22,354 bases of DNA, taken from a virus. Shown piece after piece: positions 2-14,932 of the stretch. The stretch lies in the IMG/VR virus record IMGVR_UViG_3300032323_001002, positions 1 to 22,354 of that record. One strand, written 5' to 3'. Position 1 is the stretch's first letter; every line of letters starts with the position of its first letter. Below the pieces are notes generated by a model that saw nothing but the letters and a program-made list of their open reading frames with translations, was not told the DNA's origin and searched no databases. Made by a program: the position numbers and the translations under genes.

Positions 2-1495
2 ATTAAATCCGATCTAAAAAAAGGTAAAAAGGAAGTAATAAAAAAATACGGTATTTCGGAGGATACATACGACGAATTAAAGGAAGCGCAAGAACACGAC
101 GACTTTTGGTTTTTAAACGATAAAAACAAAATATCAATCAATCCATTCAAATACAAATTATTTTTGGAACGCAATGGATTTAAAAAGCATTTCCCAAACG
201 AATCCGATAAACCACAATTTGTATACATCCAATCAAACAAAGTTAGATTGACATCCGTTTCAAAGATTAAGGATTTCGTACTGGATTATTTAATTGAACG
301 AAAAGAATTTGATGTTTGGAATTATTGCGCCAATTATCAAATGCTATTTTCTGAAACTTATTTGTTGATGTTGGAATCCATTGATTTGATGATGCTAAAA
401 GATGAACGAAAAAAATCATTTTTAGCATTTCAAAATGGTATTTTAGAAATCACCGATAAAGAAATAAAATTGATTGATTACATTGATGTTGATGGTTATG
501 TTTGGGAATCAAATATCTTGAATCGTAACTTTGTGTTTTGTGATGATTTCACAAATGATTATCAAAAGTTTATTTATAACATTTCCGCACAAAATCCATT
601 CCCAATTGAATGCACCATTGGTTATTTATTGTCAACCTATAAAAACCGATCCAATGTTAAAGCCGTAATTTTAAATGATGAAATCATTTCAGACAATCCC
701 GAAGGCGGAACAGGAAAAGGATTATTTGTGCAAGGATTGAGCCATATCAGAAATACATCAATCATTGATGGCAAACAATTTGATTCAAAAAAATCATTCG
801 CATACCAAACCGTTTCATTGGACACAAAAATCCTTGTGTTTGATGATGTAAAAAAGAATTTTGATTTTGAGGATAAATTTTCAATTGTGTCGGAAGGTTT
901 GACATTGGAACGCAAAAATAAAGATGCAGTAAAATTGAATGTTCACGAATCACCAAAAATTGTAATGTCAACTAATTACGCAATAAAAGGTGAAGGAAAT
1001 TCACACAATAGAAGAAGGCACGAAATTGAAATTGCACAATATTACGGCAAAGATTTAACACCTGATGAAGAATTTGGAAAACAGTTGTTTGATGAATGGG
1101 ATTTGGAAGAATTCCAGCGTTTTGACAATTATATGGTCAATTGCCTACAAATGTTTTTGAAATCAGGATTGATGAAACAAAACGCAAAAAATATCAAATT
1201 ACGAAAATTCATTGCAGAAACAAATATGGATTTTTACGAATGGATCATTGATGCGGAAAATTTCCCAATCAATATGCGAAATGATAAATCGGTTTATTTC
1301 AATGCATTTATCAATGATAACAAGGATTATGATAAATGGTTGAAACGAAATAGATTTAATATTTGGATTCAGAAGTATGCAAGTTTTATGGATTATCGAT
1401 TTGAGCAAGGAAATTCAAACGGATTGAAATGGTTTGGTATCTTTGAAAAGAATGTGCAAAATGTTGAACAAAATGATGATGATTTCATTTTTTAA
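2..1495 (+). CDS. SF3-type replicative helicase, probably C-terminal part of a primase-helicase (5' partial)
   Basis: The reading frame is open from base 2 with no stop, so the gene begins left of the window; the in-frame TTG at 164 is an internal leucine, not a start. Numbering from that TTG, the P-loop GGTGKG is at residues 181-186, the Walker B segment ILVFDDV at 223-229, the SF3 motif C IVMSTN at 256-261, and an arginine cluster RRRH follows as candidate arginine finger. This order is that of superfamily 3 ATPases, which unwind DNA as hexamers at a viral origin or fork. In phages this domain is commonly fused behind a primase domain (D5/DUF5906-like architecture), so a primase upstream is inferred but not visible. 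The next gene, another helicase, starts 10 bases after the stop, suggesting one replication operon. Confidence 0.85.
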   Translation: MKSDLKKGKKEVIKKYGISEDTYDELKEAQEHDDFWFLNDKNKISINPFKYKLFLERNGFKKHFPNESDKPQFVYIQSNKVRLTSVSKIKDFVLDYLIERKEFDVWNYCANYQMLFSETYLLMLESIDLMMLKDERKKSFLAFQNGILEITDKEIKLIDYIDVDGYVWESNILNRNFVFCDDFTNDYQKFIYNISAQNPFPIECTIGYLLSTYKNRSNVKAVILNDEIISDNPEGGTGKGLFVQGLSHIRNTSIIDGKQFDSKKSFAYQTVSLDTKILVFDDVKKNFDFEDKFSIVSEGLTLERKNKDAVKLNVHESPKIVMSTNYAIKGEGNSHNRRRHEIEIAQYYGKDLTPDEEFGKQLFDEWDLEEFQRFDNYMVNCLQMFLKSGLMKQNAKNIKLRKFIAETNMDFYEWIIDAENFPINMRNDKSVYFNAFINDNKDYDKWLKRNRFNIWIQKYASFMDYRFEQGNSNGLKWFGIFEKNVQNVEQNDDDFIF

Positions 1496-1505
1496 TTGGT
1501 AACTT

Positions 1506-2804
1506 ATGAATTTACGTGATTATCAAATTAAAATATCAGCCGATGCGTGTGAAACGCTACAACGGAAAATGATTGTCTACCTTGCAATGGAAGTCAGAAC
1601 AGGCAAAACATTGACCGCATTGCAAACCGCTGAAAATTATGGTGCGAAAAATGTTTTGTTCCTAACTAAAAAGAAAGCAATCAATTCAATCCAAAATGAT
1701 TACAACAATTGCAATTTTACATTTCAATTAACAATCATCAATGATGAATCAATGCACAAAATTACAAACACCGATTTTGATTTAGTCATTCACGATGAAC
1801 ACCACAGGTTTGGCGCATACCCAAAGCCAAATGCATCCGCAAAACTATTCAAACAAAAGTACGGTAATTTGCCAATGATTTTTTTATCAGGGACACCAAC
1901 ACCTGAATCGCATTCGCAATGGTTTCATCAATTTTGGGTTTCAAATCATTCACCATTTAAGGATTTCAAAAATTTTTACGATTGGGCAAATAAATATGTT
2001 GACATCAAAATCAAACATTTAGGTTATGCACAGGTTAAAGATTATTCCAATGCTGATAAAAAAGCGTTTTGGCATTTGATTAGATATTACATTCACACCT
2101 TTACACAACTTGAAGCAGGATTTGTGACAAACGTAACTGAAAACATTTTATATTGTGATGCCGATCCAATAACACACCGAATTGCCGAAAAACTAAAATC
2201 GGATTTGGTTGTTCAAAACAAACAAGGTCAACTAATCCTTGCAGACACATCCGTAAAACTGCAACAAAAATTGCATCAAATTTATTCCGGAACGTGCAAA
2301 TTTGAGGATGGATCATCAAAGGTCATTGACTATTCAAAGGCAATGTTTATCAGGTCGCAATTTGCGACATCAAAAATTGGTATATTTTATAAATTTGTTG
2401 AAGAATACAATGCATTGAAACACATTTTTGGTGATCAATTAACAAACGATTTGAACGAATTTGACACAACCAACAAATCAATTGCATTGCAAATTGTAAG
2501 CGGATCTGAAGGTATAAGTTTGAAAAATGCAAAATATTTAGTTTACTACAACATCGATTTTTCCAGTCGTTTATATTGGCAATCACGTGATCGATTAACA
2601 ACAATGTCACGTTCAGAAAATGATGTTTTTTTTATCTTTACAACTGGTGGAATTGAAGATAAAATTTATAGAGCCGTGCAACAAAAAAAAGATTATACAA
2701 TACAAATATTTAAACGTGATTATGGAAAACAGGATTCAATCAAAAATCATAAAAAAGCTGGAAGCCGAAGGTTATTTTGTTATCAAACTAATCAAAACAA
2801 ATAA
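1506..2804 (+). CDS. SF2 DExH-box helicase (SNF2/DEAD-like)
   Basis: A 432-residue superfamily 2 helicase or translocase that would use ATP to move on or unwind nucleic acid in phage replication or recombination. Visible motifs: motif I EVRTGKT (29-35), motif II DEHH (97-100), motif III SGT (128-130), a motif V-like SGSEGISLKNA (332-342) and motif VI QSRDR (359-363). The motif I form xxRTGKT is slightly unusual but retains the essential GKT. The ATG start is 10 bases after the upstream stop. The last 27 residues, rich in Lys and Arg, are encoded in the same DNA as the start of the nuclease gene in another frame, so this tail may be an overprinted extension rather than part of the helicase fold. 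SF2 helicase beside VRR-NUC nuclease is a common phage gene pair. Substrate is not deducible. Confidence 0.9.
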   Translation: MNLRDYQIKISADACETLQRKMIVYLAMEVRTGKTLTALQTAENYGAKNVLFLTKKKAINSIQNDYNNCNFTFQLTIINDESMHKITNTDFDLVIHDEHHRFGAYPKPNASAKLFKQKYGNLPMIFLSGTPTPESHSQWFHQFWVSNHSPFKDFKNFYDWANKYVDIKIKHLGYAQVKDYSNADKKAFWHLIRYYIHTFTQLEAGFVTNVTENILYCDADPITHRIAEKLKSDLVVQNKQGQLILADTSVKLQQKLHQIYSGTCKFEDGSSKVIDYSKAMFIRSQFATSKIGIFYKFVEEYNALKHIFGDQLTNDLNEFDTTNKSIALQIVSGSEGISLKNAKYLVYYNIDFSSRLYWQSRDRLTTMSRSENDVFFIFTTGGIEDKIYRAVQQKKDYTIQIFKRDYGKQDSIKNHKKAGSRRLFCYQTNQNK

Positions 2805-2970
2805 AAACGGAATCCCTGATTTGTTAGCCGTGAAAGGCAATGAATGTAAATTTGTGGAAGTAAAAACACCAACAGGCAAATTGTCTGAATTACAAAAATT
2901 ACGAATTGAACAACTTAAAAAACTTGGAATCGATGCAACAGTGTGGACAGATTACAATTGCGAATTTTAA
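2722..2970 (+). CDS. VRR-NUC domain nuclease
   Basis: An 82-residue stand-alone VRR-NUC protein of the PD-(D/E)xK nuclease superfamily. The catalytic pattern is clear: GIPD at residues 30-33, EVK at 46-48 and a downstream glutamine at 58, preceded by the N-terminal helix typical of the family (MENRIQSKIIKKLEAEGY). Small phage VRR-NUC proteins are usually about this size and are thought to act as structure-specific nucleases in replication or recombination. I chose the ATG at 2722 because the family helix begins there; a more upstream in-frame start would add unrelated residues and a downstream one would remove the domain's first helix. The gene therefore overlaps the helicase by 83 bases in the +1 frame. 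Biological substrate and partner are inferred only from the neighbouring helicase. Confidence 0.85.
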   Translation: MENRIQSKIIKKLEAEGYFVIKLIKTNKNGIPDLLAVKGNECKFVEVKTPTGKLSELQKLRIEQLKKLGIDATVWTDYNCEF

Positions 2971-3016
2971 ATTAAACCTAAATTTTGAAACGCAATTATC
3001 AAAGAAAGGCAGACCA

Positions 3017-3175
3017 ATGCGGTTGAGTGGTATTGCATTGCAACGGCAAAAACCTGCCGTGTGGATCAATAAACAATTGATGCACGGAACAATTTACACA
3101 TTTCGGTATTTAGACAATGACGAATTCATTTCATTTGAATTTGATCCTTATGATAATTTTATCGGAATCGTTTAA
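3017..3175 (+). CDS. Small hypothetical protein
   Basis: A short, probably beta-rich protein I do not recognise. With the ATG at 3017 it has 52 residues and begins MRLSGIALQRQ; an AAAGAAAGG stretch lies just upstream and could act as a weak ribosome site. The same frame is open further left, with an ATG at 2933 and a TTG at 2906 inside the nuclease gene, so a longer product overlapping the nuclease is possible; residues before 3017 (for example SKKGRP) look plausible as protein. The C-terminal half, with alternating hydrophobic and charged residues and the stretch FEFDPYDNFIGIV, argues that it is a real coding frame. It lies between the nuclease and the terminase genes, a place where phages often carry small accessory genes. 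Function unknown. Confidence 0.55.
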   Translation: MRLSGIALQRQKPAVWINKQLMHGTIYTFRYLDNDEFISFEFDPYDNFIGIV

Positions 3176-3183
3176 ATATTTTA

Positions 3184-3191
3184 TACCTTTG
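3184..3191 (+). promoter_or_regulatory. Bacteroidetes-type -7 promoter box TACCTTTG
   Basis: TACCTTTG is a perfect match to the Bacteroidetes -7 consensus TAnnTTTG, in a short AT-rich gap between stop 3175 and ATG 3197. No clear -33 TTG is present 17-23 bases upstream. Only five bases separate the box from the ATG, so transcription would start about at the start codon. Confidence 0.55.
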
Positions 3192-3196
3192 CATTT

Positions 3197-3412
3197 ATGA
3201 TCAAGGCAAAAATATATGTCGAAACCGAATCCGAAATTGAAACACGTGATTTCTATTTTGACATAAATGATGTTAATGGTTGCTACATATACAATGAAGA
3301 AACAATGTTCATTTTAATCAATGGATATGATTATTCAATTGTGTTTGATGTGCTAATTTTTAAACAATGCATTGAACATCTTAATAAACGAAAACTTTTT
3401 AATCTTAACTAA
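3197..3412 (+). CDS. Small hypothetical protein before terminase
   Basis: A 71-residue protein of unknown function. The sequence alternates hydrophobic and polar residues (KAKIYVETESEIETRDFYF, then FILINGYDYSIVFD), suggesting a compact beta-sheet fold, and ends with a short helix containing a lysine-rich segment. No signal peptide, membrane segment or catalytic motif is visible. The start is the ATG directly after the TACCTTTG promoter box; the stop codon overlaps the ATG of the small terminase by one base (TAATG), so the two genes are likely translated in a coupled manner and transcribed together. This position suggests a link to packaging or to the switch from replication to late functions, but that is inference from location only. 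Confidence 0.7.
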   Translation: MIKAKIYVETESEIETRDFYFDINDVNGCYIYNEETMFILINGYDYSIVFDVLIFKQCIEHLNKRKLFNLN

Positions 3413-3852
3413 TGGGAAAACATAAATACATAAAATCACCTGATCAAATGTGGGATTTGTTTTTGGAATACAAAAAGGAAACAAAAAGCAATCCAATCCG
3501 CATTCACGATTTCAAAGGAAGTTTGGCAAATGAAGTGTTTATTGAGAAAGAAAGACCATTGACCGACAAAGGGTTTTTCAACTTTTGCCGTAGAAACATT
3601 TGTTGTGTGCGACAATATTTTGACAATCAGGATAATTTGTATACGGATTATATTGCAATCTGCAAACACATAAGGGAAGAAATTGACCAAGATCAGATTG
3701 AAGGCGGTATGGCAGGAATTTACAATCCATCAATAACGCAACGATTAAACAACCTAACTGAACGCACTGACATCACAACCGATGGCAAAGACATCAACAC
3801 ATCAATAATGGTTGAAATTGTAAAACCAAATGAAGGCGACAATAGTATTTGA
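3412..3852 (+). CDS. terS: Terminase small subunit
   Basis: A 146-residue protein that should recognise phage DNA and deliver it to the large terminase subunit. It resembles the DNA-packaging protein family found in Bacteroidetes phages: an N-terminal helical part starting KSPDQMWDLFLEY, a central region with GFFNFCRR followed by helices, and the characteristic C-terminal segment EGGMAGIYNPSITQRLN at about residues 102-118 with the oligomerisation helices before it. The start ATG overlaps the preceding stop by one base. Its last 23 bases overlap the start of the large terminase gene, the classic terS-terL arrangement, which supports the call. The exact DNA recognition site (pac or cos) cannot be read from the sequence. 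Confidence 0.85.
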   Translation: MGKHKYIKSPDQMWDLFLEYKKETKSNPIRIHDFKGSLANEVFIEKERPLTDKGFFNFCRRNICCVRQYFDNQDNLYTDYIAICKHIREEIDQDQIEGGMAGIYNPSITQRLNNLTERTDITTDGKDINTSIMVEIVKPNEGDNSI

Positions 3853-5035
3853 AAAAATTTGGAATTCAATCAATGCGAAAAATAGTGATGGCACACGGAA
3901 ATACCGATATATCATAAACACAGGATCATCACGATCATCAAAAACGCATTCAATTATCCAATGCCATTATTTGAAAGCGTGGGAAAAGCCAAGGCGAATT
4001 TCCATTTGGCGAGAAACAAAGAAGGACACAAAAGATACGGTATTGGCGGATTTCAAAAAAGCATTGCCATCATTTGACAAACACCAGTTTGTGCAATTCA
4101 ACAAAACCGAATCTATTTATACATTTCCAAATCAATCAACAGTTGAAATTTGTGGTGGGGATGATGAATCACGTGTACACGGATTTCAAGGTGACATTGC
4201 GCATTTCAATGAGCCGTACAATATCAGCCGTGAAACATTTGACCAAATCGATATGCGGACATCGGAATTCGTGATCATTGACTGGAATCCAAAAACAAAA
4301 CACTGGATTGATGATTTGTCAAAACAGGACAATGCAATTGTGATCCATTCCACATTCAAAGACAATCCATTTTGTCCAGTTGAGCAACGCAACAAAATCC
4401 TATCTTATGAGCCAACTGAATATAACATTCACAATGGAACGGCAAATGATTATATGTGGCAGGTTTACGGATTAGGATTGAAAGCGGAACGACCAAACCG
4501 AATTTATAAAGATTGGATCAGGTTACCTGCAAACCAATGGAATCAAATTCACTATTCATCTTATTTTGGTTTGGATTTTGGATTGAGTGCGCCTTGTGGA
4601 TTGGTCGAAATGAAATTTGATGGTGACCGCACATTCTATTTAAAACAACATTTGTATAAACCATTGAATGCAATGGCATCGACATTGTCGGATGAATTTG
4701 CCAAATTGGGCATCAGCAAAGTAAAAGAAATAATTTGCGATTCAGGAAATGAATTGAATCAATCCGAAGCGCAAAAGTTGATCAATGCGGGTTACAATAT
4801 CATAAAAGCCAAAAAAGGAAGTGGATCAGTTGTTGCAGGAATTGAATTGATGCAGAAATACAAAATTGTTGTGACTGATGATTCATTTGAATTGCTGGAT
4901 GAATATGAAAATTATTGTTGGCGAGTGGCAAAAGGTGTGCAACTGGATGAGCCTGATCCATTGTGTGCGGATCACTTGTTGGATGCATCCAAATATGTTA
5001 TCAATTGGTTTGGGCGCACCAATTATTTGCATTAA
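3830..5035 (+). CDS. terL: Terminase large subunit (PBSX/Terminase_3 type)
   Basis: A 401-residue packaging motor: an N-terminal ATPase pumps DNA into the procapsid and a C-terminal RNase H-like nuclease cuts it. Visible ATPase motifs are the Walker A GSSRSSKT (32-39), a Walker B-like IAHFNEP (123-129), and the coupling region around IIDWNP (149-154) and HSTFKDNP (173-180). Nuclease acidic residues are D249 in FGLDFGLS, D304 in IICDSG, and D381/D385 in ADHLLDASKY, the usual three-metal-ligand pattern. Length matches the PBSX family. The Walker B has Asn where Asp is usual before the catalytic Glu, a variant I recall from this family. ATG 3830 lies within terS. The stop is followed by the first sizeable intergenic gap and a promoter. 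Confidence 0.95.
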   Translation: MKATIVFEKIWNSINAKNSDGTRKYRYIINTGSSRSSKTHSIIQCHYLKAWEKPRRISIWRETKKDTKDTVLADFKKALPSFDKHQFVQFNKTESIYTFPNQSTVEICGGDDESRVHGFQGDIAHFNEPYNISRETFDQIDMRTSEFVIIDWNPKTKHWIDDLSKQDNAIVIHSTFKDNPFCPVEQRNKILSYEPTEYNIHNGTANDYMWQVYGLGLKAERPNRIYKDWIRLPANQWNQIHYSSYFGLDFGLSAPCGLVEMKFDGDRTFYLKQHLYKPLNAMASTLSDEFAKLGISKVKEIICDSGNELNQSEAQKLINAGYNIIKAKKGSGSVVAGIELMQKYKIVVTDDSFELLDEYENYCWRVAKGVQLDEPDPLCADHLLDASKYVINWFGRTNYLH

Positions 5036-5053
5036 GAAACAAAAATTTTCTTA

Positions 5054-5087
5054 TTTGTAATTATTATAAATAATTTTATTAACTTTG
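5054..5087 (+). promoter_or_regulatory. Promoter for the head (portal) operon
   Basis: TTTG at 5054-5057 and TAACTTTG at 5080-5087 fit the Bacteroidetes -33/-7 consensus (TTTG, then TAnnTTTG) with a 22-base spacer. The element lies in the 69-base gap between terL and the portal ATG at 5105, giving an expected leader of roughly 14 bases. The spacer contains a 7-3-7 AT palindrome (5059-5075) that could be an operator or chance. Confidence 0.75.
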
Positions 5088-5104
5088 CACATTAAAGTGT
5101 ATTT

Positions 5105-6313
5105 ATGTTTGATTCTTTATTAGGTCGGTTTGGCTATATAAAAGCCGAACGCAATCGATTGGGTGAATTTTGGTACACAATCGACACCAATGGTTTTGCT
5201 GATGATGGTAAGTATTTACAATTGTCATTGACAAATCCTGTATTGATGACCATTATTGCATTGCGATCAAACATTTATTCGCAAATGGAAATAAAGCATT
5301 TGAATGCTAATGGTGATATAATTGAAAATTCACCTGTCATTGCATTGCTTAATTCACCAAATTATTTCCAGTCAAAAGAGGATTTCTTTTTTCAGCAAAT
5401 GTGGTTTATGTCCGCATCGGGAAATAATTACACATACCAACGAAAAGCATTCAACACGGATCAATTGCCAAAGGCATTGTACAACCTTGTTCCTGCTGAA
5501 ATTGATTTCAATAATTCAAATAAGTTAAGCAAATTTATATTCACCAACAAAGATTTCAATGCTTATGGTGAACGAAAAATAAAATACAAATTGGATGATA
5601 CATTGATTGAAATACCAATCAATGCAATAATTCCGTTTTATGATCTTGGAAATGGTTTGACAAACAATGCGTTTATGCAATCGCCAAGCCGTGTGCGTGG
5701 AATATTGAAACCATTGCAGAACATTGAAGAAAACTTGAAAGCAAAGCACGTAAATTTGCAAATGGCACAAAAATTCATTGGGCGCAATCATTCAACTGGA
5801 AATGAAGCGCAAATGCAGGAAGGTGACAAAAATGCAATTGAACGTGTGATTTCATCCAAATCATTGGTTTTGACAAACCGTGCTAATGTGGAAGTGCAAC
5901 ATTTGGTGAACAACTTAAAGAATTTAAGTTTGGATGATCAATTCAGTCAGGATGCATTGAAATGTTTGTTGGCATTCGATATGAACAAAGATGTATTGAA
6001 TTATTTTGGTGCAGGATCATCAACATTTGAAAACCAAGAAAAAGGCGAATTAAGATATTTGCAAAATTCAATTATTCCAACGGCAAATTCAACAATGAAT
6101 TCATTTTCGCAACAATTTGGATTGTTTGAAAAAGGTGAACGATTGGTTGCATCATTTGATCACATGAATATAATGCAACCGGTGATCAATGAAAAAATTG
6201 ACACGTTGAAGAAAATGGAAGAAACAATTAAAATTGCAATGGAAAACGGAACAATGACACAGGCGGAAGCGGTTGAAACCTCCAACAAATTGCGGTCAAA
6301 ATTAGGGTTGTAA
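5105..6313 (+). CDS. Portal protein (HK97-like)
   Basis: A 402-residue portal protein forming the dodecameric ring at one capsid vertex through which DNA enters and to which the tail attaches. It starts MFDSLLGRFGYIKAER and shows the HK97-type portal pattern: an N-terminal region with NPVLMTIIALRSN (entry of the wing), WFMSASGNNYTYQ around residue 100, the LYNLVPAEI strand, a segment around FMQSPSRVRGILKPLQNIEE leading to the long helices, and a C-terminal helical part with KKMEETIKIAMENG. Position directly after terL and before protease and capsid genes fits the standard order. The ATG is the first one after the promoter. The stop TAA overlaps the ATG of the following small gene by one base. 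Confidence 0.92.
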   Translation: MFDSLLGRFGYIKAERNRLGEFWYTIDTNGFADDGKYLQLSLTNPVLMTIIALRSNIYSQMEIKHLNANGDIIENSPVIALLNSPNYFQSKEDFFFQQMWFMSASGNNYTYQRKAFNTDQLPKALYNLVPAEIDFNNSNKLSKFIFTNKDFNAYGERKIKYKLDDTLIEIPINAIIPFYDLGNGLTNNAFMQSPSRVRGILKPLQNIEENLKAKHVNLQMAQKFIGRNHSTGNEAQMQEGDKNAIERVISSKSLVLTNRANVEVQHLVNNLKNLSLDDQFSQDALKCLLAFDMNKDVLNYFGAGSSTFENQEKGELRYLQNSIIPTANSTMNSFSQQFGLFEKGERLVASFDHMNIMQPVINEKIDTLKKMEETIKIAMENGTMTQAEAVETSNKLRSKLGL

Positions 6314-6426
6314 TGAAGGAAAAGTTTGATAAATTACAGGATAAAAAAGGATTGAAACCTGAATTGGTGAAATCAATTGCTGATAAAAAGAAAGCGTTTT
6401 TAAACGGTAAAACAATAAAGAAATGA
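6313..6426 (+). CDS. 37-residue lysine-rich small protein between portal and protease
   Basis: A complete short frame from ATG 6313 to TGA 6426. Its ATG shares a base with the portal stop (TAATG) and its stop overlaps the ATG of the protease gene (ATGA), so it is stitched on both sides by translational coupling signals, which is strong evidence that it is translated. The product starts MKEKFDKLQDKKGLKPELV, is about one third lysine, probably alpha-helical, and contains no cysteine or membrane segment. I know of no defined function; small lysine-rich proteins at this place could assist portal or prohead assembly, which is inference from position only. It is shorter than most gene callers' cut-off and is easily missed. 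Confidence 0.7.
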   Translation: MKEKFDKLQDKKGLKPELVKSIADKKKAFLNGKTIKK

Positions 6427-7283
6427 TTGAAGTAAAAGAATTTCCAAATCGCAGTTTTGAAACACAAGCGGAATTGTTTAAAGAATTGCGAGAAAATAAA
6501 AAAACATTGATTTCAATGAAACGTGCAACGGACAAACGTGCCGATTCATTTTGTTTTTACACCACATCGAATTCAGCATATAAGTCAGAAACACAAAAGA
6601 ATGATGATCCTGCAAACAATGAAATGTTAATGATGGATAATTTAGCCGTGAAATGTGTGATCAACACAACCAATTATTTGGATTCGCACGGTGATGTTCA
6701 CATCAATGGCATTTGGAACAAATCGATTGCCGATAATAATGGAAAAGGATTTTTGCATTTGCAGGAACACCAACGTGAATTTGACAAAATCATTTCAGAT
6801 AATGCAACGGCATCAATTCAGACAATTAGTTGGAATCAATTAGGATTGCCTTATGATGGTAACACCGAAGCATTGGTGTTTGATTCATTGATCCAAAAGA
6901 AACGCAATGAATTTATGTTGAAACAATATGCAAACGGTTGGGTAAAAAATCATTCAGTTGGAATGCGTTATGTCAAAATAGAATTGGCGATAAATTCGGA
7001 GGCGGATTATGATGCTGATGAAAAAGCCGTTTGGGACAAATATTATCCAATCATTGCCAATAAGGAAGTGGCTGATGAACGTGGATATTTTTGGGCGGTT
7101 ACCGAAGCAAAGATAATTGAAGGTAGTGCGGTTGTGATGGGATCAAATGATGCTACACCAACATTGCCAACAAACGAAAATAAAACAATAGCCGTTGATG
7201 ACAACACTATTGAAACGGATGTGCCGACAATTGATGTCACACATCAAATTGAGCAATTAAAAGAAATAATTAACAAAATCTAA
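6423..7283 (+). CDS. Prohead protease (HK97 gp4/S78-like)
   Basis: A 286-residue protein matching the HK97 prohead maturation protease family, which removes the capsid delta domain and itself before DNA packaging. Visible: the entry strand VINTTNYLDSHGDVHINGIW (about 79-98), where the family typically has a V-D-x-x-G-D-x-I pattern, candidate catalytic His116 in LHLQEHQ, candidate Ser178 in VKNHSVGMRY, and the closing motif IIEGSAVVMGSN (231-242). The C-terminal 45 residues are acidic and Thr-rich, probably a scaffold-like or self-cleaved tail. Location between portal and capsid genes supports the call. It starts with an ATGA overlap with the small gene before it and ends 11 bases before the capsid ATG. 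The first 65 residues are not recognised. Confidence 0.85.
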   Translation: MIEVKEFPNRSFETQAELFKELRENKKTLISMKRATDKRADSFCFYTTSNSAYKSETQKNDDPANNEMLMMDNLAVKCVINTTNYLDSHGDVHINGIWNKSIADNNGKGFLHLQEHQREFDKIISDNATASIQTISWNQLGLPYDGNTEALVFDSLIQKKRNEFMLKQYANGWVKNHSVGMRYVKIELAINSEADYDADEKAVWDKYYPIIANKEVADERGYFWAVTEAKIIEGSAVVMGSNDATPTLPTNENKTIAVDDNTIETDVPTIDVTHQIEQLKEIINKI

Positions 7284-7294
7284 ATTTCAAAAGG

Positions 7295-8506
7295 ATGGAA
7301 TTAAATGAATTAATCAAAGGTTTTGAAGAAAAAATTGATGCCTTAAAAACCGAAAGCGTTTCGAAAAATGATTTAGAAAACTTAAAATCAGAAATGGAAA
7401 CAATCAAATCACAAATCACAAATGCGGAAACAATCAATGGATTGACTGCAAAAATGGATGAATTAGCATTGCAAATTGCTGAAAAATCAACTGTTGAAAA
7501 CAACAGTCCATTTGCTGAATTAGAGCAAGTGCTTATTGAAAAAGGTGATGCAATCAAAAACCAAAAAACACAAGGGAACATTGCAAACGTAACAATCAAA
7601 GCGGTTGGTCCAGTATTAACAACAAACGTAACTGCTGGTGCAGGTGGAAATGTTGTTGCAATGACTCAATCAACTGGTGAGTTATATGCTACTGCTGATA
7701 ATCGTTTATTCGCTGAATCAATTATGAATGCAATGCGTGTTGATCTTGACACTATTACTTACATTGATGAAGTTGAAGGTGAAGGCGGTGCAGGAATGAC
7801 ATCAGAAGGTGGAACAAAATCACAAGGTGATGTTGATTATGTTGAAAGAACGGTTGCATTACAAAATGTAACGCATTTCATCAAAGTATCAACCAAAATG
7901 TTACGTCAACCTTCATATATTGTTGATGCAGTACGTTCAAAATTGTTAAGAAAATTACAATTGAAAAAACAAGAGCAATTGTTGAGTGGTGATGGCACTG
8001 CACCAGACATCAAAGGAATCAAAGAATGGGCAACCGCTTATGATGGTGCTGATTTTGATGGAAGTGTAGTTGAGCCAAACCTTAATGACTTAATCCGTGT
8101 GTGTGTTGCATTGATCTCAAAAGAAGCGGATGATTTCGTTCCTAATTATGTGATCGTATCGCACAAACGTATGGCGGATATGGATTTGAAAAAAGCAACT
8201 GATGGTCATTATGTATTGCCTCCATTTTCTTCATTAGACAATAGAGTTGTTGCAAGTGTACGTGTAATTGCATCAAATGAATTTACTGACAATGAATTGT
8301 TAGTTGGTGATTTCACAAAAGCAAATTATGTATACAACAGTGACATCCAATTGTCAATCAATTTGGATGGTAATGATTTCATCAAAAATTTACGCACTAT
8401 ATTGGCGGAACAGGCAATTGCATTGTACGTTTCAAGTAATGAGCAAGGCGCATTTGTTTTGGTTGACAATATTGATACTGCATTAACTGATTTAGCAACT
8501 GCATAA
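7295..8506 (+). CDS. Major capsid protein (HK97 fold)
   Basis: A 403-residue HK97-fold capsid protein. Residues 1 to about 65 form a charged coiled coil (ELNELIKGFEEKIDALKTE and onward), the delta or scaffold domain expected to be removed by the protease encoded just upstream; cleavage probably falls near residues 90-110, before the glycine-rich NVTAGAGGNV. The mature part shows familiar features: ESIMNAMRVDLDTI (N-arm), the E-loop region around EGEGGAGMTSEGGTKSQ, HFIKVSTKML, and the spine-helix end with LLSGDGTAPDIKGI at 229-242, then P- and A-domain strands. Codon choice looks different from most neighbours, with more GCT, GGT, CGT and TTA, as expected of a very highly expressed gene. The start ATG directly follows AAAAGG. 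Confidence 0.92.
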   Translation: MELNELIKGFEEKIDALKTESVSKNDLENLKSEMETIKSQITNAETINGLTAKMDELALQIAEKSTVENNSPFAELEQVLIEKGDAIKNQKTQGNIANVTIKAVGPVLTTNVTAGAGGNVVAMTQSTGELYATADNRLFAESIMNAMRVDLDTITYIDEVEGEGGAGMTSEGGTKSQGDVDYVERTVALQNVTHFIKVSTKMLRQPSYIVDAVRSKLLRKLQLKKQEQLLSGDGTAPDIKGIKEWATAYDGADFDGSVVEPNLNDLIRVCVALISKEADDFVPNYVIVSHKRMADMDLKKATDGHYVLPPFSSLDNRVVASVRVIASNEFTDNELLVGDFTKANYVYNSDIQLSINLDGNDFIKNLRTILAEQAIALYVSSNEQGAFVLVDNIDTALTDLATA

Positions 8507-8508
8507 TT

Positions 8509-8703
8509 ATGGTTGTAGTTTTATTGCAAGACATTGGCAGTAAAGCAAAAGGCACAATAATCAACCTTGAATCAACACATGCTTCAAGGTTGATTAAAAA
8601 TGGAATGGCTGAATTGCCAAACCAAATGCCAGTTGTTGAAACTGCATCAGTTGAAGTTGAAGAAAAACCAAAAAGAAAGCGCAAACCAAAAACACAGGAA
8701 TAA
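8509..8703 (+). CDS. Small basic-tailed protein downstream of capsid
   Basis: A 64-residue protein starting two bases after the capsid stop. Residues 1-36 (VVVLLQDIG, then GTIINLESTHASRLIKNGMAE) follow the pattern of small proteins often found after phage capsid genes, with a short beta part and a helix ending in an x-L-I-x-x-G-x-A motif; the tail is acidic (VETASVEVEE) and then strongly basic (KPKRKRKPKTQE). It might be a minor head or decoration protein or bind DNA or RNA through its tail, but no function is established from the sequence. A perfect 14-bp inverted repeat lies within codons 17-30. The stop overlaps the next ATG by one base (TAATG), so it is probably co-translated with the connector gene. 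Confidence 0.7.
   Translation: MVVVLLQDIGSKAKGTIINLESTHASRLIKNGMAELPNQMPVVETASVEVEEKPKRKRKPKTQE
8558..8596 (+). repeat. Perfect 14-bp inverted repeat inside coding sequence
   Basis: The left arm TAATCAACCTTGAA (8558-8571) and right arm TTCAAGGTTGATTA (8583-8596) are exact reverse complements around an 11-base loop. It lies 51 bases after the capsid stop, within the small downstream gene. No T run follows on either strand, so it is not a standard terminator; a transcript-stabilising or processing hairpin is possible. Confidence 0.85.
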
Positions 8704-9335
8704 TGTCAATCATTACAATAGAACATTTTAAACAAGCAAATAATTTGTACATTCCAATTGCAACTGATTTTCCTGTTGCAAACACATCGGCAACACCGCC
8801 AAATGTGTCGGATGCAATTACAAATTTGATCACAAAGGTTGAGAAAAATGTTTTGTTGAATGCATTGGGATTAAGCGCATACAATGAATTGATCAGCGTT
8901 TTGCCTGATATTGATGAGCCGGAAAACGAAAAATGGAAAAAATTAGTTGAAGGTGAAGAATATGATGGCAAATTGTGGAATGGTTTACAATGGGAATTTT
9001 CATTGTTGGCTTATGCCGTGAAAATGGAATTTTTATTTTTGAATGCACAAAATTTGCAAGGCATTGGAGTTGTTGAAGCGCAACCACAAAATGGTGTGTT
9101 TATGAGTCCGCAATTTGAAATTGCAAATTTGTCAGTTAAGTTTGTCGAAATGTATCAAGGCGATTTCCTTTATCATCCAATTGTTTATGATGATTTCATT
9201 GATTGGGCTGGAAGTCGACAAAGCGAAACCGAGCCATCATTGTATGGTTATTTATACGACAAACGTGCGGATTTCGAAAATATTGATTTGAATAAATTTC
9301 AGATTTACAAACCATTTAATTCGTTTGGTTTATGA
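8703..9335 (+). CDS. Putative head-tail connector / head completion protein
   Basis: A 210-residue protein in the position of head-tail adaptors, between capsid and tail genes. The N-terminal part contains NVSDAITNLITKVEKNVLLNALGLSAYNEL split over about residues 34-63, a helical pattern (two helices with an x-L-G-x-x-x-Y-x-E-L end) seen in Bacteroidetes phage adaptor-like proteins; a middle aromatic helix (WNGLQWEFSLLAYAVKMEFLFL) and an aromatic-rich C-terminus (PSLYGYLYDKRADF) follow. No catalytic motif is visible. It starts on a TAATG overlap and ends on an ATGA overlap with the next gene, tying it to both neighbours. The adaptor role is inferred from gene order and helix pattern; a minor capsid protein is an alternative. 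Confidence 0.6.
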   Translation: MSIITIEHFKQANNLYIPIATDFPVANTSATPPNVSDAITNLITKVEKNVLLNALGLSAYNELISVLPDIDEPENEKWKKLVEGEEYDGKLWNGLQWEFSLLAYAVKMEFLFLNAQNLQGIGVVEAQPQNGVFMSPQFEIANLSVKFVEMYQGDFLYHPIVYDDFIDWAGSRQSETEPSLYGYLYDKRADFENIDLNKFQIYKPFNSFGL

Positions 9336-9871
9336 TTGTTTTTGAAACGGAATTTGGCAGATTGGTTGATCAAATACCGCCAATTGTTGATGCAAAAGGA
9401 AATGAATTTCCTGTAAAATATAATTGGGGAAATAAAGATGATTTGTTTGCTTATTTAAAAATCGCAAAGACAAACGCATTTCCGTTAATTTGGGTTGAAA
9501 ATACACCTGACATTCACAATTTACGTGAAAATAGTGTTTTCAGAAATGCAAGAATCAATGTAATTTCAATTGCGCAAGTTCCTGCAGAATTCAATCCATA
9601 CCAATATCAATACGATTTCAAAGAGATTTTGCAACCAATTGCGGACAAAGTTATTGATGCAATAAAACAAAGCGGAATTGCAATGCTAAATATGGCAAAC
9701 GTGAACACATCACGTGTGACAAAATTCAGTTTGCAAGAAGTTGACAAATCCCTGACATACATTTGCAATGCAATTGTAATGGATTTTGATGTGAAAATTG
9801 TCAAAATAAAATCAGGAAGTCAATCAGGCGGACAAATTGATGAAAGTTGTTTAAATAATATAAATTTTTAA
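9332..9871 (+). CDS. Putative tail completion / tail terminator protein
   Basis: A 179-residue protein of mixed alpha/beta type. Features visible include a strand followed by AYLKIAKTNAFPLIWVENTP (about 40-59), the strand NARINVISIAQV, a helix with ILQPIADKVIDAIKQSG (about 99-115), and the paired strands ICNAIVMDFDVKIVKIK near the end, where the last visible domain closes. This strand-helix-strand order between the connector gene and the tail tube gene is what neck or tail terminator proteins (lambda gpU-like) show, so that role is suggested from position and rough fold, not from a diagnostic motif. The ATG overlaps the preceding stop by four bases (ATGA). A 12-base AT-only gap separates it from the tail tube gene. 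Confidence 0.55.
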   Translation: MIVFETEFGRLVDQIPPIVDAKGNEFPVKYNWGNKDDLFAYLKIAKTNAFPLIWVENTPDIHNLRENSVFRNARINVISIAQVPAEFNPYQYQYDFKEILQPIADKVIDAIKQSGIAMLNMANVNTSRVTKFSLQEVDKSLTYICNAIVMDFDVKIVKIKSGSQSGGQIDESCLNNINF

Positions 9872-9883
9872 AATAATAAAAAA

Positions 9884-10801
9884 ATGGCAATATTAACAGG
9901 TACAAATTGTACAACCGATCGTTTGGGAACAGGAATGGAATCCTGCCAAACAATTGAAGGGTTACCAAGTGGTTTGATTTTGACACCAAAAGGTTGGTCA
10001 TTATCAAAAACAAGTGGAACATTTGACAAAACTTATGTTCAAATGCAAATCCAATCCGGTCTATTCATTCCAATGGTGGGATGTTTTGATGCGGTTTCTG
10101 AAACACCTGATCCAACAACCGAAGAATCACAAAGTGGTTTGATGTCAGTTGTTAGACAAGGAAAACCAACATTCACATTCACATTCAAGAATGGTTTGGC
10201 AGGTCACAAAGCACGTTATTCATACAATTCGTACAACGAATATGATGCATTGATTGTTTACGAAAGTGGTGTAATCAAATGTGCGGAATCAGTTGATGGA
10301 TCAAACATCAAAGGAATGACAATTGGTATGTTAAACACAGGTGGTTATTCTGAAAATAATGGTACAAATTCAGCAAGTTCAGTTTTGAAATTCCAAGTGA
10401 CAAACCCACAGGAATATAACCAATACGTTACTTTGTTGAGTGGTTTGGATTTCAATCCAAATACTGAAATCAATGGAATCACCGATGTGAAATTGACAGG
10501 AACGGCAGATGCAACAACAAACACATTATTTGTTAATGCAGTTTGGTTACACAATGAGCAATTCAATTTTTCATTCTTTACATCAAGTAATTTCAAAATT
10601 ACAGTTGAAGGAACGGAACAACCAATTGATGGATTTAGTTATAATACAACAACAAAACAATATGAAATTCTTGTTGATTATAATTTTGGTGCAGGTGATG
10701 AAATTGTTGCTGAATTGTTTGATGGTGATGAAGGATTACCTTGTGTGAAAGTTGGCGATAAATTTTATCGCGGTGCAACACCAATAATGATTGCAAGTTA
10801 A
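9884..10801 (+). CDS. Putative major tail tube protein
   Basis: A 305-residue protein placed where the tail tube gene is expected, followed directly by hairpins and a terminator, as for an abundant structural product. The sequence is beta-rich with few charged helices: MAILTGTNCTTDRLGTG, then LILTPKGWSLSK, a central TFTFTFKNGLAGHKARYSY, and a C-terminal part after about residue 195 (ITDVKLTGTADATTNTLFVN and FKITVEGTEQPIDGF) that may be a separate Ig-like decoration domain. Cysteines at about 9 and 21 could pair. No sheath gene follows, fitting a non-contractile tail. The call rests on gene order, composition and size; proteomics of particles would settle it. Confidence 0.65.
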   Translation: MAILTGTNCTTDRLGTGMESCQTIEGLPSGLILTPKGWSLSKTSGTFDKTYVQMQIQSGLFIPMVGCFDAVSETPDPTTEESQSGLMSVVRQGKPTFTFTFKNGLAGHKARYSYNSYNEYDALIVYESGVIKCAESVDGSNIKGMTIGMLNTGGYSENNGTNSASSVLKFQVTNPQEYNQYVTLLSGLDFNPNTEINGITDVKLTGTADATTNTLFVNAVWLHNEQFNFSFFTSSNFKITVEGTEQPIDGFSYNTTTKQYEILVDYNFGAGDEIVAELFDGDEGLPCVKVGDKFYRGATPIMIAS

Positions 10802-10840: not shown

Positions 10841-10857
10841 AGTTTTTAAAGTTGGTG

Positions 10858-10891
10858 AAAAAGCCATTCGCATTGTCGGATGGCTTTTTTT
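10858..10891 (+). terminator. Rho-independent terminator, probably bidirectional
   Basis: The stem AAAAAGCCATTCG pairs with CGGATGGCTTTTT around the loop CATTGT, including one T-G pair, and is followed by a run of T ending at 10891. The A run on the left makes it also usable on the other strand. It closes the head and tail tube operon and lies 57 bases after the tube gene's stop. Confidence 0.9.
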
Positions 10892-11621: not shown

Positions 11622-12216
11622 TATTGACAATATTCCTGCAAAGGTGTTTTTTGATATTTTGAAGTCAGAAGATTACCAGTTGTTGAAGCCAAAGCCGAAG
11701 GAAAATAAAACATCCGAATTGAAAAAATTGTTTATGTCGATTTATGATGATTTTTTCACCAAATCGGAAAATAAAGAAGCAAAGCGGTATTTGGAATTAA
11801 ACAAAGAAATTTTGCAATTGGAATACAAAATCAATGTGATCAAACAAATTCTATATTTGTTGCATTATTATCCAAAAACACGAAAAATGCACAATGATTT
11901 GTTGAAGGCATTAAAAGATGGATGTGGTATTGAAATTGATGAAAATAATGCATTTAGTGATGAAGTGATCCGTGTTTTGAATGTTGATTTGGGAATGTTG
12001 GTGACTGATTTGCAATTTGCAAATGCTGAATTTGAAGAAATGATCCGCAAATCACAGGCAAAAAATTATGATTATTTTGATGCCATTGTAAATTTATCAA
12101 CTGCATTGCCAAACAATTCATTGTTGAAGGAATCAATGACATTAGCGGTTTATGTGGCATTGGAAAAGGAAGCAAAACGAATTTCAGATTTAAACAAACA
12201 AAAAAATAATGGCTGA
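11605..12216 (+). CDS. Putative tail assembly chaperone-like protein
   Basis: A 203-residue mostly helical protein directly before the tape measure gene. It starts MPKYNSIDNIPAKVFFDILK, continues with YQLLKPKPKENKTSELKKLF and an aromatic FMSIYDDFF, then long amphipathic helices (YLELNKEILQLEYKINVIKQ and DVIRVLN-like segments). This N-terminal pattern occurs in proteins at the same position in Bacteroidetes phages. Tail chaperones that bind and protect the tape measure are typically helical and encoded here, so the role is suggested by position, length and helix content, without a diagnostic motif. The gene starts 17 bases inside the previous gene and its last 8 bases overlap the tape measure start, consistent with coupled translation of chaperone and client. 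Confidence 0.6.
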   Translation: MPKYNSIDNIPAKVFFDILKSEDYQLLKPKPKENKTSELKKLFMSIYDDFFTKSENKEAKRYLELNKEILQLEYKINVIKQILYLLHYYPKTRKMHNDLLKALKDGCGIEIDENNAFSDEVIRVLNVDLGMLVTDLQFANAEFEEMIRKSQAKNYDYFDAIVNLSTALPNNSLLKESMTLAVYVALEKEAKRISDLNKQKNNG

Positions 12217-14932
12217 ATTTATTGAAGTATTAAGTCCAACGGCATTGGCTGATTTGGAAAAATTGAATGCCAAATTGATTGAAACGGTTTCAACTGTTGA
12301 CAAAATCAATGCGAAATTCAAAACCATTTCAACACCGAGTGGTGTAGATAGCGCAACCAATGATTTGTCACAAAAATACAAAGAATTGGAAGCAACGGTT
12401 GTAAAATTACAAGCGCAATTACAAAAGTCAGCGGATGCAAATGTGCGCAATGCTGAAAAAACACGTTTGGCTGAAATCAAATTGTCGCAGGATCGCGAAA
12501 AGGCATTTGACAAATACGAAAAGCAATTGGCACGTGAACAAGCCAAATTGAAAACGGCAGAAGGTGCATACCAACGAATCCAAAACGGATTGAATTCAAT
12601 GACCAATGCATACCGTGATTTGGCAATTCGCAAAGAATTGAATGGAACGTTGACAAAAGGTGAAGAAAAGCAATTTGCATATTTACAGGCACGAATCCAA
12701 AAGTTTGACACGGCATTGAAGGCAGTTGATGCATCAATGGGAAAATACCAACGTAATGTCGGTAATTATTCAAGCGCATTCAATCCATTGAATAATTCAA
12801 TCAATCAATTGACACGTGAAATGCCTGCATTTGCCAATAGTGTGCAAACTGGATTTATGGCGATTTCCAACAATTTACCAATATTTTTTGATTCAATGCA
12901 ACAAGTGATTGCGCAAAACAAAGAATTACAAAAACAAGGTCAACCAACAAAATCATTGTTCAGTCAATTAGCAGGTGCGGTTTTTAGTTTTGGAACGGCA
13001 TTGTCGGTTGGTGTTACATTGTTGACAGTTTATGGCAAAGACATTGCAGAATGGGCATCCAATCTAATGAAAGGCGGAAAAGCAATTGATGTTATTGGCG
13101 AATCACAAAGGCAATTAAATGAAATTAACAAAGAAGGACAAAAAAATGCAGTTGAAGAACAATTGAAAGTTAAATCATTGTTGGAAATTGCAAAAGATCA
13201 AAATTTGTCATATAAGGAACGAGTAATTGCAGTTAAGGAATTACAAAGCACTTACCCTGCCTATTTTGGTAATTTAGAGCAGGAAAAGATTTTGGCAGGG
13301 CAAACAAAAGATGCTGAAAATGAATTGACACAGGCGATTTTGAGCAGAGCAAAAGCGAATGCGGCAGTTGAAAAAATAACCGAAAACCAAAGCAAAATCA
13401 TTGATTTTGAATTGGAAAGGTTGGATTTATTGAAGAAAGTAAAAACCGCTGAACAAGATGTTGCGAATGCAAGAAAAGTGCAAACACAAACAACAGGTGG
13501 TGGAACGGTTGCAGGAACTTATGATCTTGAAACAAGCGCAATGATGCGTTTAACACGAAGTAAAAGCAGTTTAGTAAATGTTGAAAAGCAATTGGCAGAA
13601 TTAAAAGGTGTTAATGATGTTTTATCAAAGTTTGCAATTGAAAATCAAAAGAAGTCAATTAAATTAGATCAGGAATCTACAAAAGCAAAAAAAGAAAAAG
13701 CAAAAGCCGAAAAAGAATCGGTTGATCCTTCATCACTTCAAGCGATGGAAGATATGATTTCCAATTTGGAAAAGCAAATGAAACAAACCGATGTGACATC
13801 GGAAACATACAATTATTTAGGCGGTGTTTTGAAAATGGTCAAATTGTCTTATGATGCATTAGTCAGCGCAATGCAGAAAAAAGAAGCGTTATCAGTTCAG
13901 AGCAAAGGTGTGAAAACAATAATTGATGGAAACAAATTGTTGCACGAATCAACACAACAAGCGATTAAGGATTTTGAAGAACAAGCCGAAGCGACAAAGA
14001 AACAAAAAGAAGAATTAGAAAAACTGAAAAAAACAATTGAAGATTATGCAGTCAGTTTTTCAAGTGATTTTTTCAGCAAATCAGGTTTTCCAACATTATT
14101 CAAAGTATTAAATGATGAAATTGAAGGATTTGGCGATAATTGGGCGGTGACATTCCAAGCCATTGCAGAAATCGGCCAAGAAACATTCAATTTCATTTCG
14201 CAATTAAGCCAACAACGATTCAAAAACGAATATGATAATTTGGCAAAGGAAAAAGAAATTGCATTGGCATTTGCTGGTGAATCAACCGCAGGTCGAGAAG
14301 AAATTGAACGGCAATTTCAAGAACGGCAAAGCCAAATCAAAAGAAGGGAATTCAAAGCAAAACAACAGGAAGCGATGTTTAACATTGCAATTGACACCGC
14401 ACAAGCGATTGTTGGCGCAATTGCCAAATCACCTGCAACTGGTGGTATGCCTTGGACTGCAATAATTGCCGCAATGGGTGCTATTCAATTGGGTGTTGTT
14501 GCAAGTCAGCAAATACCTGAATATTGGACAGGAACGGACAATGCGCAACAGGGTTGGGCATGGACACAGGAAAAAGGTCGTGAAATTATCACCGACAAAA
14601 ATGGTCGAATCAAATCAACTGGAAGTGACAAAGGTGCATCATTGACATATTTGAACAAAGGAGATAAAGTATACAATGCACAAAAATCGGCATTGATGTT
14701 TGACAATGCTTTGAATGGTTTATTGATGCAAAACGGAATTGCGCAACCAAAAGTTGAAGTGAACAATGTGATATTGGATTCACAAGTTGATCGCATTGTA
14801 AATGCAGTTGGAAGCATTGATCCAGTATCATTGAACATTGACAAACGTGGTTTGAATGCTTATGTGCGAAATGGACATTCCACAAAAGAAATCCAAAATT
14901 TAAGAATAACAGGCAAAGGCAGAAAAGTATAA
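12209..14932 (+). CDS. Tail tape measure protein
   Basis: At 907 residues this is the longest gene in the window and shows the usual tape measure build: long coiled coil in the first 190 residues (for example ELEATVVKLQAQLQKSADA), a GKYQRNVGNYSSAFNPL segment followed by REMPAFANSVQTGFMAISNN that is typical of tape measures of Bacteroidetes phages, a hydrophobic stretch at about 250-277 (AVFSFGTALSVGVTLLTVYG), further coiled coils around 490-620, a second hydrophobic region at about 723-767 (ending MGAIQLGVVASQQIPEYWTG), and a C-terminal domain with EKGREIITDKNGRI and YLNKGDKVYNAQKS. It sets tail length; by the usual helix rise of 0.15 nm per residue a tail near 135 nm is expected. Large antisense frames over it reflect its repetitive codons. 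Confidence 0.92.
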   Translation: MAEFIEVLSPTALADLEKLNAKLIETVSTVDKINAKFKTISTPSGVDSATNDLSQKYKELEATVVKLQAQLQKSADANVRNAEKTRLAEIKLSQDREKAFDKYEKQLAREQAKLKTAEGAYQRIQNGLNSMTNAYRDLAIRKELNGTLTKGEEKQFAYLQARIQKFDTALKAVDASMGKYQRNVGNYSSAFNPLNNSINQLTREMPAFANSVQTGFMAISNNLPIFFDSMQQVIAQNKELQKQGQPTKSLFSQLAGAVFSFGTALSVGVTLLTVYGKDIAEWASNLMKGGKAIDVIGESQRQLNEINKEGQKNAVEEQLKVKSLLEIAKDQNLSYKERVIAVKELQSTYPAYFGNLEQEKILAGQTKDAENELTQAILSRAKANAAVEKITENQSKIIDFELERLDLLKKVKTAEQDVANARKVQTQTTGGGTVAGTYDLETSAMMRLTRSKSSLVNVEKQLAELKGVNDVLSKFAIENQKKSIKLDQESTKAKKEKAKAEKESVDPSSLQAMEDMISNLEKQMKQTDVTSETYNYLGGVLKMVKLSYDALVSAMQKKEALSVQSKGVKTIIDGNKLLHESTQQAIKDFEEQAEATKKQKEELEKLKKTIEDYAVSFSSDFFSKSGFPTLFKVLNDEIEGFGDNWAVTFQAIAEIGQETFNFISQLSQQRFKNEYDNLAKEKEIALAFAGESTAGREEIERQFQERQSQIKRREFKAKQQEAMFNIAIDTAQAIVGAIAKSPATGGMPWTAIIAAMGAIQLGVVASQQIPEYWTGTDNAQQGWAWTQEKGREIITDKNGRIKSTGSDKGASLTYLNKGDKVYNAQKSALMFDNALNGLLMQNGIAQPKVEVNNVILDSQVDRIVNAVGSIDPVSLNIDKRGLNAYVRNGHSTKEIQNLRITGKGRKV

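Follow-up and report, generated by a model that had tools for sequence, protein, structure and literature searches.

The window analyzed here is the whole stretch of 22,354 bases that makes up virus record IMGVR_UViG_3300032323_001002. Genes for a terminase large subunit (3830-5035), a portal protein (5105-6313), and a tape-measure protein (12209-14932) were recognized in it, and the features around the capsid gene are collected in Table 1. The small gene behind the capsid gene encodes a protein that matches phrog_2616 (E value, 1.5e-4), a family of unknown function, and gives a weak DUF7302-like match (E value, 0.0066; 17.2 bits, cut-off 24.9). From its position, the next gene is taken to be a connector gene, and homologues in Muminvirus and Cellulophaga phage phi19:1 (in the latter, by MS/MS) are annotated as structural proteins; likewise from its position, the gene at 9884-10801 would be the major tail gene. 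In the window, as at several relatives' loci, genes start either right next to the stop of the gene before or overlapping it. The nearest named relatives are Muminvirus phages (32.6% identity for the capsid protein, 41.3% for the connector protein). No DNA match to the window and no match to the small protein were found in the named phage collection, and two scans of genome contigs found no relatives of the window.

Table 1. Features at and around the post-capsid hairpin, in window coordinates
Feature	Position	Strand	Remarks
Major capsid gene	7295..8506	+	PF05065 (E value, 2.4e-19); phrog_10
Small post-capsid gene, 64 aa	8509..8703	+	Lysine-rich tail; hairpin at nt 50-88
Hairpin 5' arm, TAATCAACCTTGAA	8558..8571	+	14 bp
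Hairpin apical part	8572..8582	+	Mismatch 8572/8582; 2 bp (8573-8574 with 8580-8581); 5-nt loop 8575-8579
Hairpin 3' arm, TTCAAGGTTGATTA	8583..8596	+	14 bp; next 8 bases are AAAATGGA, without a U tract
Next structural gene ("connector")	8703..9335	+	Without a top-1% hairpin in the window
Intrinsic-terminator-like hairpin and T run	10857..10890	+	After gene 9884-10801

The preliminary description had drawn attention to a perfect 14-bp inverted repeat in a 195-base gene, 51 bases past the capsid stop. Repeat and place are as described, the two arms being exact complements, and the predicted RNA fold is stable (-18.4 kcal/mol; z score, -8.45; 0 of 200 shuffles equally low) with 5 G-C pairs among the 16 of the stem. 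None of the 3677 other 48-nt windows in the 22-kb contig folds at so low an energy, and the hairpin is the sole perfect stem of at least 11 bp with a loop of 3 to 30 nt in the window. The further claim that such a stem is unlikely by chance in a coding region holds up under resampling: a perfect stem this long (at least 14 bp; loop, 3 to 30 nt) turned up once among 1000 windows in which 23 genes had been resampled synonymously, and in 8 of 300 first-order Markov windows. Synonymous resampling of the small gene alone gave no such stem in 20,000 trials (longest, 13 bp) and no fold matching the hairpin in strength in 200, and all 14 pairs formed in the hairpin's own register at a frequency of 3.5e-5 (400,000 draws). 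Rare codons in the arms had also been pointed out; across the called genes, CTT makes up 23 of 561 Leu codons and AGG 16 of 222 Arg codons, so that both are indeed rare.

A repeated operator or mobile repeat was considered and rejected. The arm pattern with at most three mismatches has nine matches in the window, both hairpin arms included, against 6.0 expected, and 14 of 100 shuffles reach nine; moreover, the full hairpin occurs in just one other viral contig, the near-clone L003. At gathering score, an Rfam scan matched no known RNA family in the window and, in the relatives, only tRNAs (in L118, L033, L087, L108, and L112). L003 has 5 mismatches to the window over 2641-9339, with none in the small gene, and its near identity makes it uninformative on selection of the window hairpin. 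Past that stretch, 12 mismatches follow up to 9399 and then 37, 59, and 56 in successive 200-bp bins (ungapped comparison); this mosaic break (window 9340-9924) falls around and inside the gene at 9332-9871.

In the orthologues of the small gene, the compensatory changes in the same arms that the preliminary description had proposed as a check are not found. Orthologues behind related capsids (L021-L023, L024, and L027, and the more distant L014, L015, L017, and L019) keep the protein frame and have lost the window's pairing, forming just 4 to 7 of the 14 Watson-Crick pairs (the row for L008, aligned at the wrong KG, was not used). Seen in isolation, this loss would have given the hairpin the look of an accident. 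L004 and L005, whose capsids are 69% identical, lack the small gene. The hairpin is thus not a fixed conserved feature of the small gene, an idea we dropped. L094, the closest relative that is distinct from the window (64% identity in the connector over 184 columns), carries its own slot hairpin in the small gene, with the center about 5.5 nt off the window's register as read from the alignment, so that the register differs even between close lineages. Protein kept and pairing lost is therefore what we see for the window's register, but in other lineages the hairpin is found relocated. Loss of pairing in orthologues would count against the earlier idea only if the hairpin stayed put; its place varies, which is why the same-arm comparison fails.

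For the survey of hairpin positions, a search with an alignment of the connector gene yielded 95 relatives, 80 of which were kept; with L022 and L023 added, a small gene was called in 76 of 82 slots, giving 60 distinct DNA sequences, the window's included, and the non-redundant sample consists of 46 groups at 90% identity, the window among them. The place of the small post-capsid gene is here called the slot, and a strong hairpin is one in the top 1% (or 0.5%) of windows of its own contig. By eye, the slot holds interchangeable small lysine-rich proteins of three types, and the type seems to track that of the capsid C terminus; the L060 slot holds an unrelated 120-aa protein, and the slots of L004 and L050 hold no small gene. 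Capsid and small gene appear to have been exchanged jointly (L087 and L090 versus L088, L089, L091, and L098), a hint that small protein and capsid function together.

A top-1% hairpin lies in the slot and/or the connector gene at 43 of the 46 loci (18 slot, 23 connector, 2 both), with neither at L023, L079, and L100. At the top-0.5% cut, the distribution is 15 slot only, 23 connector only, none with both, and 8 with neither, and the 38 loci with a hairpin (83%) compare with 12.1% under random placement. The hairpin center lies 37 to 600 nt past the capsid stop. Within the connector gene, 25 of 46 loci have a top-1% hairpin at +150..290, and when only its first 350 nt are considered, the best window starts 183 to 190 nt inside the gene in 23 of 46 representatives. 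When 60-nt bins are counted from the connector start, the bin +180..240 (25/46 loci) and, in the small gene, the bin -120..-60 (16/46) are rich in hairpins, as are the terminator-region bins at +2100..2220 (14/43 and 20/43); the mean per bin is 4.1%. Several relatives have slot hairpins that are imperfect yet very strong, with -22.1 kcal/mol in L094, -21.3 in L099, -19.7 in L109 and L116, -19.2 in L112, and -19.0 in L108 and L113, and among the 60 distinct slot genes the longest perfect stem after that of the window is 8 bp. A Fisher test for mutual exclusion of slot and connector hairpins gives a p value of 2e-6, which is inflated by relatedness. The slot label needs 5 to 6 changes on the connector tree, and exclusivity is confounded by descent: the few independent pairs (4 on supported branches) give a median sign-test p value of 0.5. 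Other strong coding-embedded connector hairpins lie at +270 in L094 and at +55 to +60 in L004 and L080, and strong hairpins are also frequent near the gene end, 660-720 nt past the connector start (10/45 loci).

Selection on the pairing was assessed with synonymous nulls and with covariation. Among 41 small genes, 14 had at most 5 of 200 synonymous resamplings as strong as the native hairpin; for the connector genes, taken over their first 360 nt, the count was 19 of 46. The null is not beaten at some loci that share the connector hairpin (L052, 43 of 200; L050, 31; L004 and L080, 19 each). At the 30 of 46 loci whose connector genes could be aligned by motif, 88.3% of the cells of the connector hairpin are paired, and there are 15 changes on both sides of a pair versus 4.2 +/- 1.8 in shuffled alignments (0/500 as many) and at most 8 in slid controls; the pairs with a both-side change number 5, which 24 of 500 shuffles match. 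The type B small-gene hairpin (18 sequences) is paired in 90.2% of cells, with 7 both-side changes versus 1.4 +/- 1.0 (0/500) and at most 3 in slid controls; its further pair types (8) show no excess over shuffles (322/500). Some both-side changes are synonymous as read by eye, e.g., GGC/AAG in L108 versus GGT/AAA in L104, GCG/TCC in L108 versus GCT/TCA in L055, and GCC/TTG in L112 versus GCT/TTA in L096. RNAalifold recovered both stems in shortened form, and its covariation terms were close to zero (-0.19 and +0.04).

Control genes sharpen what these numbers mean. Stems in the capsid gene have up to 18 both-side cells at 75% paired, and many both-side changes were therefore dropped as proof on their own. 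By pairing, the inner 8-bp stem of the connector hairpin (0.875) ranks first among the 10,319 candidate stems of its gene, and the best control stems reach 0.815 in the capsid gene (19,499 candidates) and 0.790 in the next gene (8,075). Conservation of synonymous codons peaks at the 3' part of the connector hairpin (excess, 0.373; connector gene mean, 0.104, standard deviation, 0.078; capsid maximum, 0.257), and the mean energy there, -15.9, is the lowest of the gene (gene mean, -5.2; capsid minimum, -11.0). A second conservation peak of about 0.32, without an equally strong hairpin, lies at codons 53-63 (NALGLTTYN) of the connector alignment. On the mRNA strand, 41 of 234 cells of the type B alignment are G-U, which suits RNA, and a DNA palindrome was rejected for this hairpin; in the connector hairpin the strand asymmetry is weak, with 9 G-U versus 7 A-C cells over 9 pairs. 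Taken together, the comparison makes it well supported that a post-capsid hairpin is under selection in this phage group, and the nulls and the compensatory changes in the relatives' own hairpins, the latter weakened by some of the controls, support the earlier suggestion of selection on RNA. For the hairpin of the window itself, selection is supported by analogy.

The sequence downstream of the stem distinguishes the slot version from a terminator. As had been noted, the hairpin of the window is not followed by a T run, and a terminator scan of the window does not call it. None of 20 slot hairpins reaches 5 T in 8 nt; lacking a U tract, the slot element is not an ordinary terminator, in line with the initial reading. 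The strong hairpins behind the major tail gene served as a positive control, and 35 of the 39 attain this T count near the stem end. Among the connector hairpins, 18 of 25 barely attain it near the stem end, and 0 of 24 do so directly after the stem; this version could be a weak terminator. Mean T counts in the 8-nt tail are 1.63 for the slot, 3.75 for the connector, and 2.31 for the background, and the stems have 9 to 18 and 11 to 20 pairs in the slot and the connector, respectively. Top-1% hairpins also occur in the terminase-portal region of 21 representatives, some 3330-3600 nt ahead of the connector gene. In 18 of these the stretch near the stem end contains 5 or more T in 8 nt, and a terminator between the packaging and the head genes is therefore likely.

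Of four cultured flavobacterial phages, three have their strongest or a near-strongest hairpin behind the capsid gene. A scan of 49.4 kb of Cellulophaga phage phi19:1 put its strongest hairpin at 245 nt past the capsid stop (0/8234 windows lower), and that of Leeuwenhoekiella phage Arctus_1 is at +409 (0/7103). The best post-capsid hairpin of Muminvirus snusmum6-1 is at +329 (2/6553 lower), and Tenacibaculum phage JQ has a middling one at +188 (27/6778). The annotated coordinates place all four within the gene after the small gene. Elsewhere, the best hairpin of Escherichia phage HK97 is directly at the capsid stop (14/6614 lower) and that of Moraxella phage Mcat20 is at +595 (10/3931), so that a post-capsid hairpin is not peculiar to flavobacterial phages.

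The repeat in the window is thus probably one case of a strong post-capsid mRNA hairpin found in phages related to flavobacterial ones. A strong stem past the capsid gene, within or ahead of the next head genes, is the constant part; the gene, its codons, the sequence, the register, and the tail all vary. Tailed phages need hundreds of capsid copies against about a dozen connectors from one operon, and the hairpin probably helps the capsid protein outnumber its neighbors. The tie to the capsid message that was proposed earlier agrees with the hairpin's position. The explanation we favor, although we give it somewhat less than an even chance, is that the hairpin, embedded in coding sequence and kept by selection, is no terminator and marks the 3' boundary of a stable capsid mRNA. 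The late operon would be transcribed through the hairpin region, and for as long as the downstream genes are being read, translating ribosomes would keep the hairpin melted. After cleavage and degradation of the downstream RNA, the hairpin could refold and block 3'-to-5' exonucleases, and an intact capsid message would remain, giving capsid in excess of the low-copy head proteins. The anatomy (a stable stem, no U tract, a place behind the capsid gene) is consistent with such a barrier. This role requires just a stable stem in the right neighborhood, which would explain the varying register, sequence, and host gene, and it is favored because the other mechanisms depend on features that vary here: a tail for termination, a fixed gene for a translational brake, and a sequence for an operator. 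We infer this mechanism from evidence that is entirely comparative, and partial termination is its main rival.

Partial termination would mean that some polymerases stop at the hairpin, as at a pause site or attenuator, leaving fewer copies of the downstream genes. Hairpins at the capsid gene ends of HK97 and SPP1 are listed as terminators, a putative one in HK97 (see below), the same operon has U-tract hairpins between terminase and portal and behind the major tail gene, and the connector tails are richer in T than the background, most reaching the threshold near the stem end. However, the slot tails are poorer in T than the background, that of the window included (AAAATGGA), no connector stem is directly followed by a T-rich tail, and the same phages are clearly able to place U tracts elsewhere; active translation over a coding-embedded site would also disfavor a hairpin forming behind the polymerase. 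We therefore regard termination as unlikely, if still the strongest competitor. A processing site for RNase III, parting the capsid message from the downstream messages, would account for a long stem without a terminator tail, free in position and sequence, and the stem lengths given above are in its favor. Yet a stem of 14 to 16 bp is short for typical sites, and the literature searched held nothing on such processing in Bacteroidota phages; we consider it improbable.

It is about as improbable, or slightly more so, that the repeat in the window is a functionless product of chance or mutation (e.g., template-switch correction of an imperfect repeat), whatever the relatives have. The Markov windows produce such a stem now and then, the repeat had been singled out beforehand from many features, pairing is missing in L021-L024 and L027, and that of L094 is in another register. 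Against this stand the synonymous nulls for the window and for the gene, an energy below that of every other window, and the fact that the hairpin falls in the slot where relatives carry strong hairpins, in a window that has no connector hairpin. The resampling nulls and the energy rank thus make chance alone unlikely for the window, and for the phage group it is ruled out. Least probable, in our view, is a translational brake, in which the hairpin slows ribosomes in the small or connector gene and so limits that protein or coupled genes. The hairpin is inside a gene in both versions, its arms in the window contain the rare codons CTT and AGG, and the gene starts are closely packed, but the host gene differs between lineages, so that no single protein is targeted, and the connector hairpin lies some 190 nt inside its gene, far from the start codon.

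Beyond the 3'-boundary role, we tentatively propose a fuller picture, possible but on the unlikely side, of a roaming coding-embedded element: one strong post-capsid hairpin would be selected, with gene and codons free; it would be rebuilt, partly by synonymous changes, in either the small gene or the next structural gene, one copy would be lost when another exists, and ribosome traffic would gate it, so that it serves as the 3' end of the capsid message only after translation of the downstream part has ceased. If true, structure and neighborhood are conserved rather than sequence, and a hairpin with a changeable address is selected within coding sequence. Alignment of one gene overlooks a hairpin that moves, as the same-arm comparison on its own would have done. 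To our knowledge, the tuning of late transcripts in phages is little known beyond a few model phages; cultured Muminvirus phages carry the hairpin, which opens it to experiment.

Several known systems resemble the arrangement in part. Intercistronic stem-loops, such as the REP sequence in malE-malF and that of the puf operon, shield upstream cistrons from exonucleases. Like the slot hairpin, they lack a U tract and lie between a high-copy and a low-copy gene, with place counting over sequence; they are intergenic, whereas the hairpins described here are coding embedded and kept partly by synonymous changes, and protection of the mRNA is here a conjecture. In phage T7, the terminator Tphi follows capsid gene 10 and reduces downstream expression. 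It shares with the window a hairpin after the major capsid gene and differs in being intergenic, in having a U tract, and in serving a single-subunit phage polymerase. HK97 has a putative terminator annotated immediately past the major head gene, and others past the portal and major tail genes; it thus resembles the window in a strong hairpin directly behind the capsid gene with sisters behind other head and tail genes. Its hairpin, however, lies in an intergenic gap and its 3' arm ends in TTTT, whereas here the hairpin is coding embedded, the slot version has no U tract, and the place shifts between two genes. Bacillus phage SPP1 has the same order of capsid, small gene (58-aa gp14), and connector adaptor (gp15), with a stem-loop behind the capsid gene, and its terminator table has an entry at 8775-8815, with capsid gene 13 ending at 8777 (PMC6316719). 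That element differs in being a Rho-independent terminator at the stop codon, with a T run and outside the small gene (PMC6316719). The HK97 and SPP1 cases show that a hairpin behind the capsid gene is already known. No hairpin embedded in coding sequence past a phage capsid gene was found in the literature searched (including PMC7077304, PMC7366714, and PMC6316719), which covers few subscription journals. What appears to be new is the coding-embedded position, the slot version without a U tract, and the change of address between genes.
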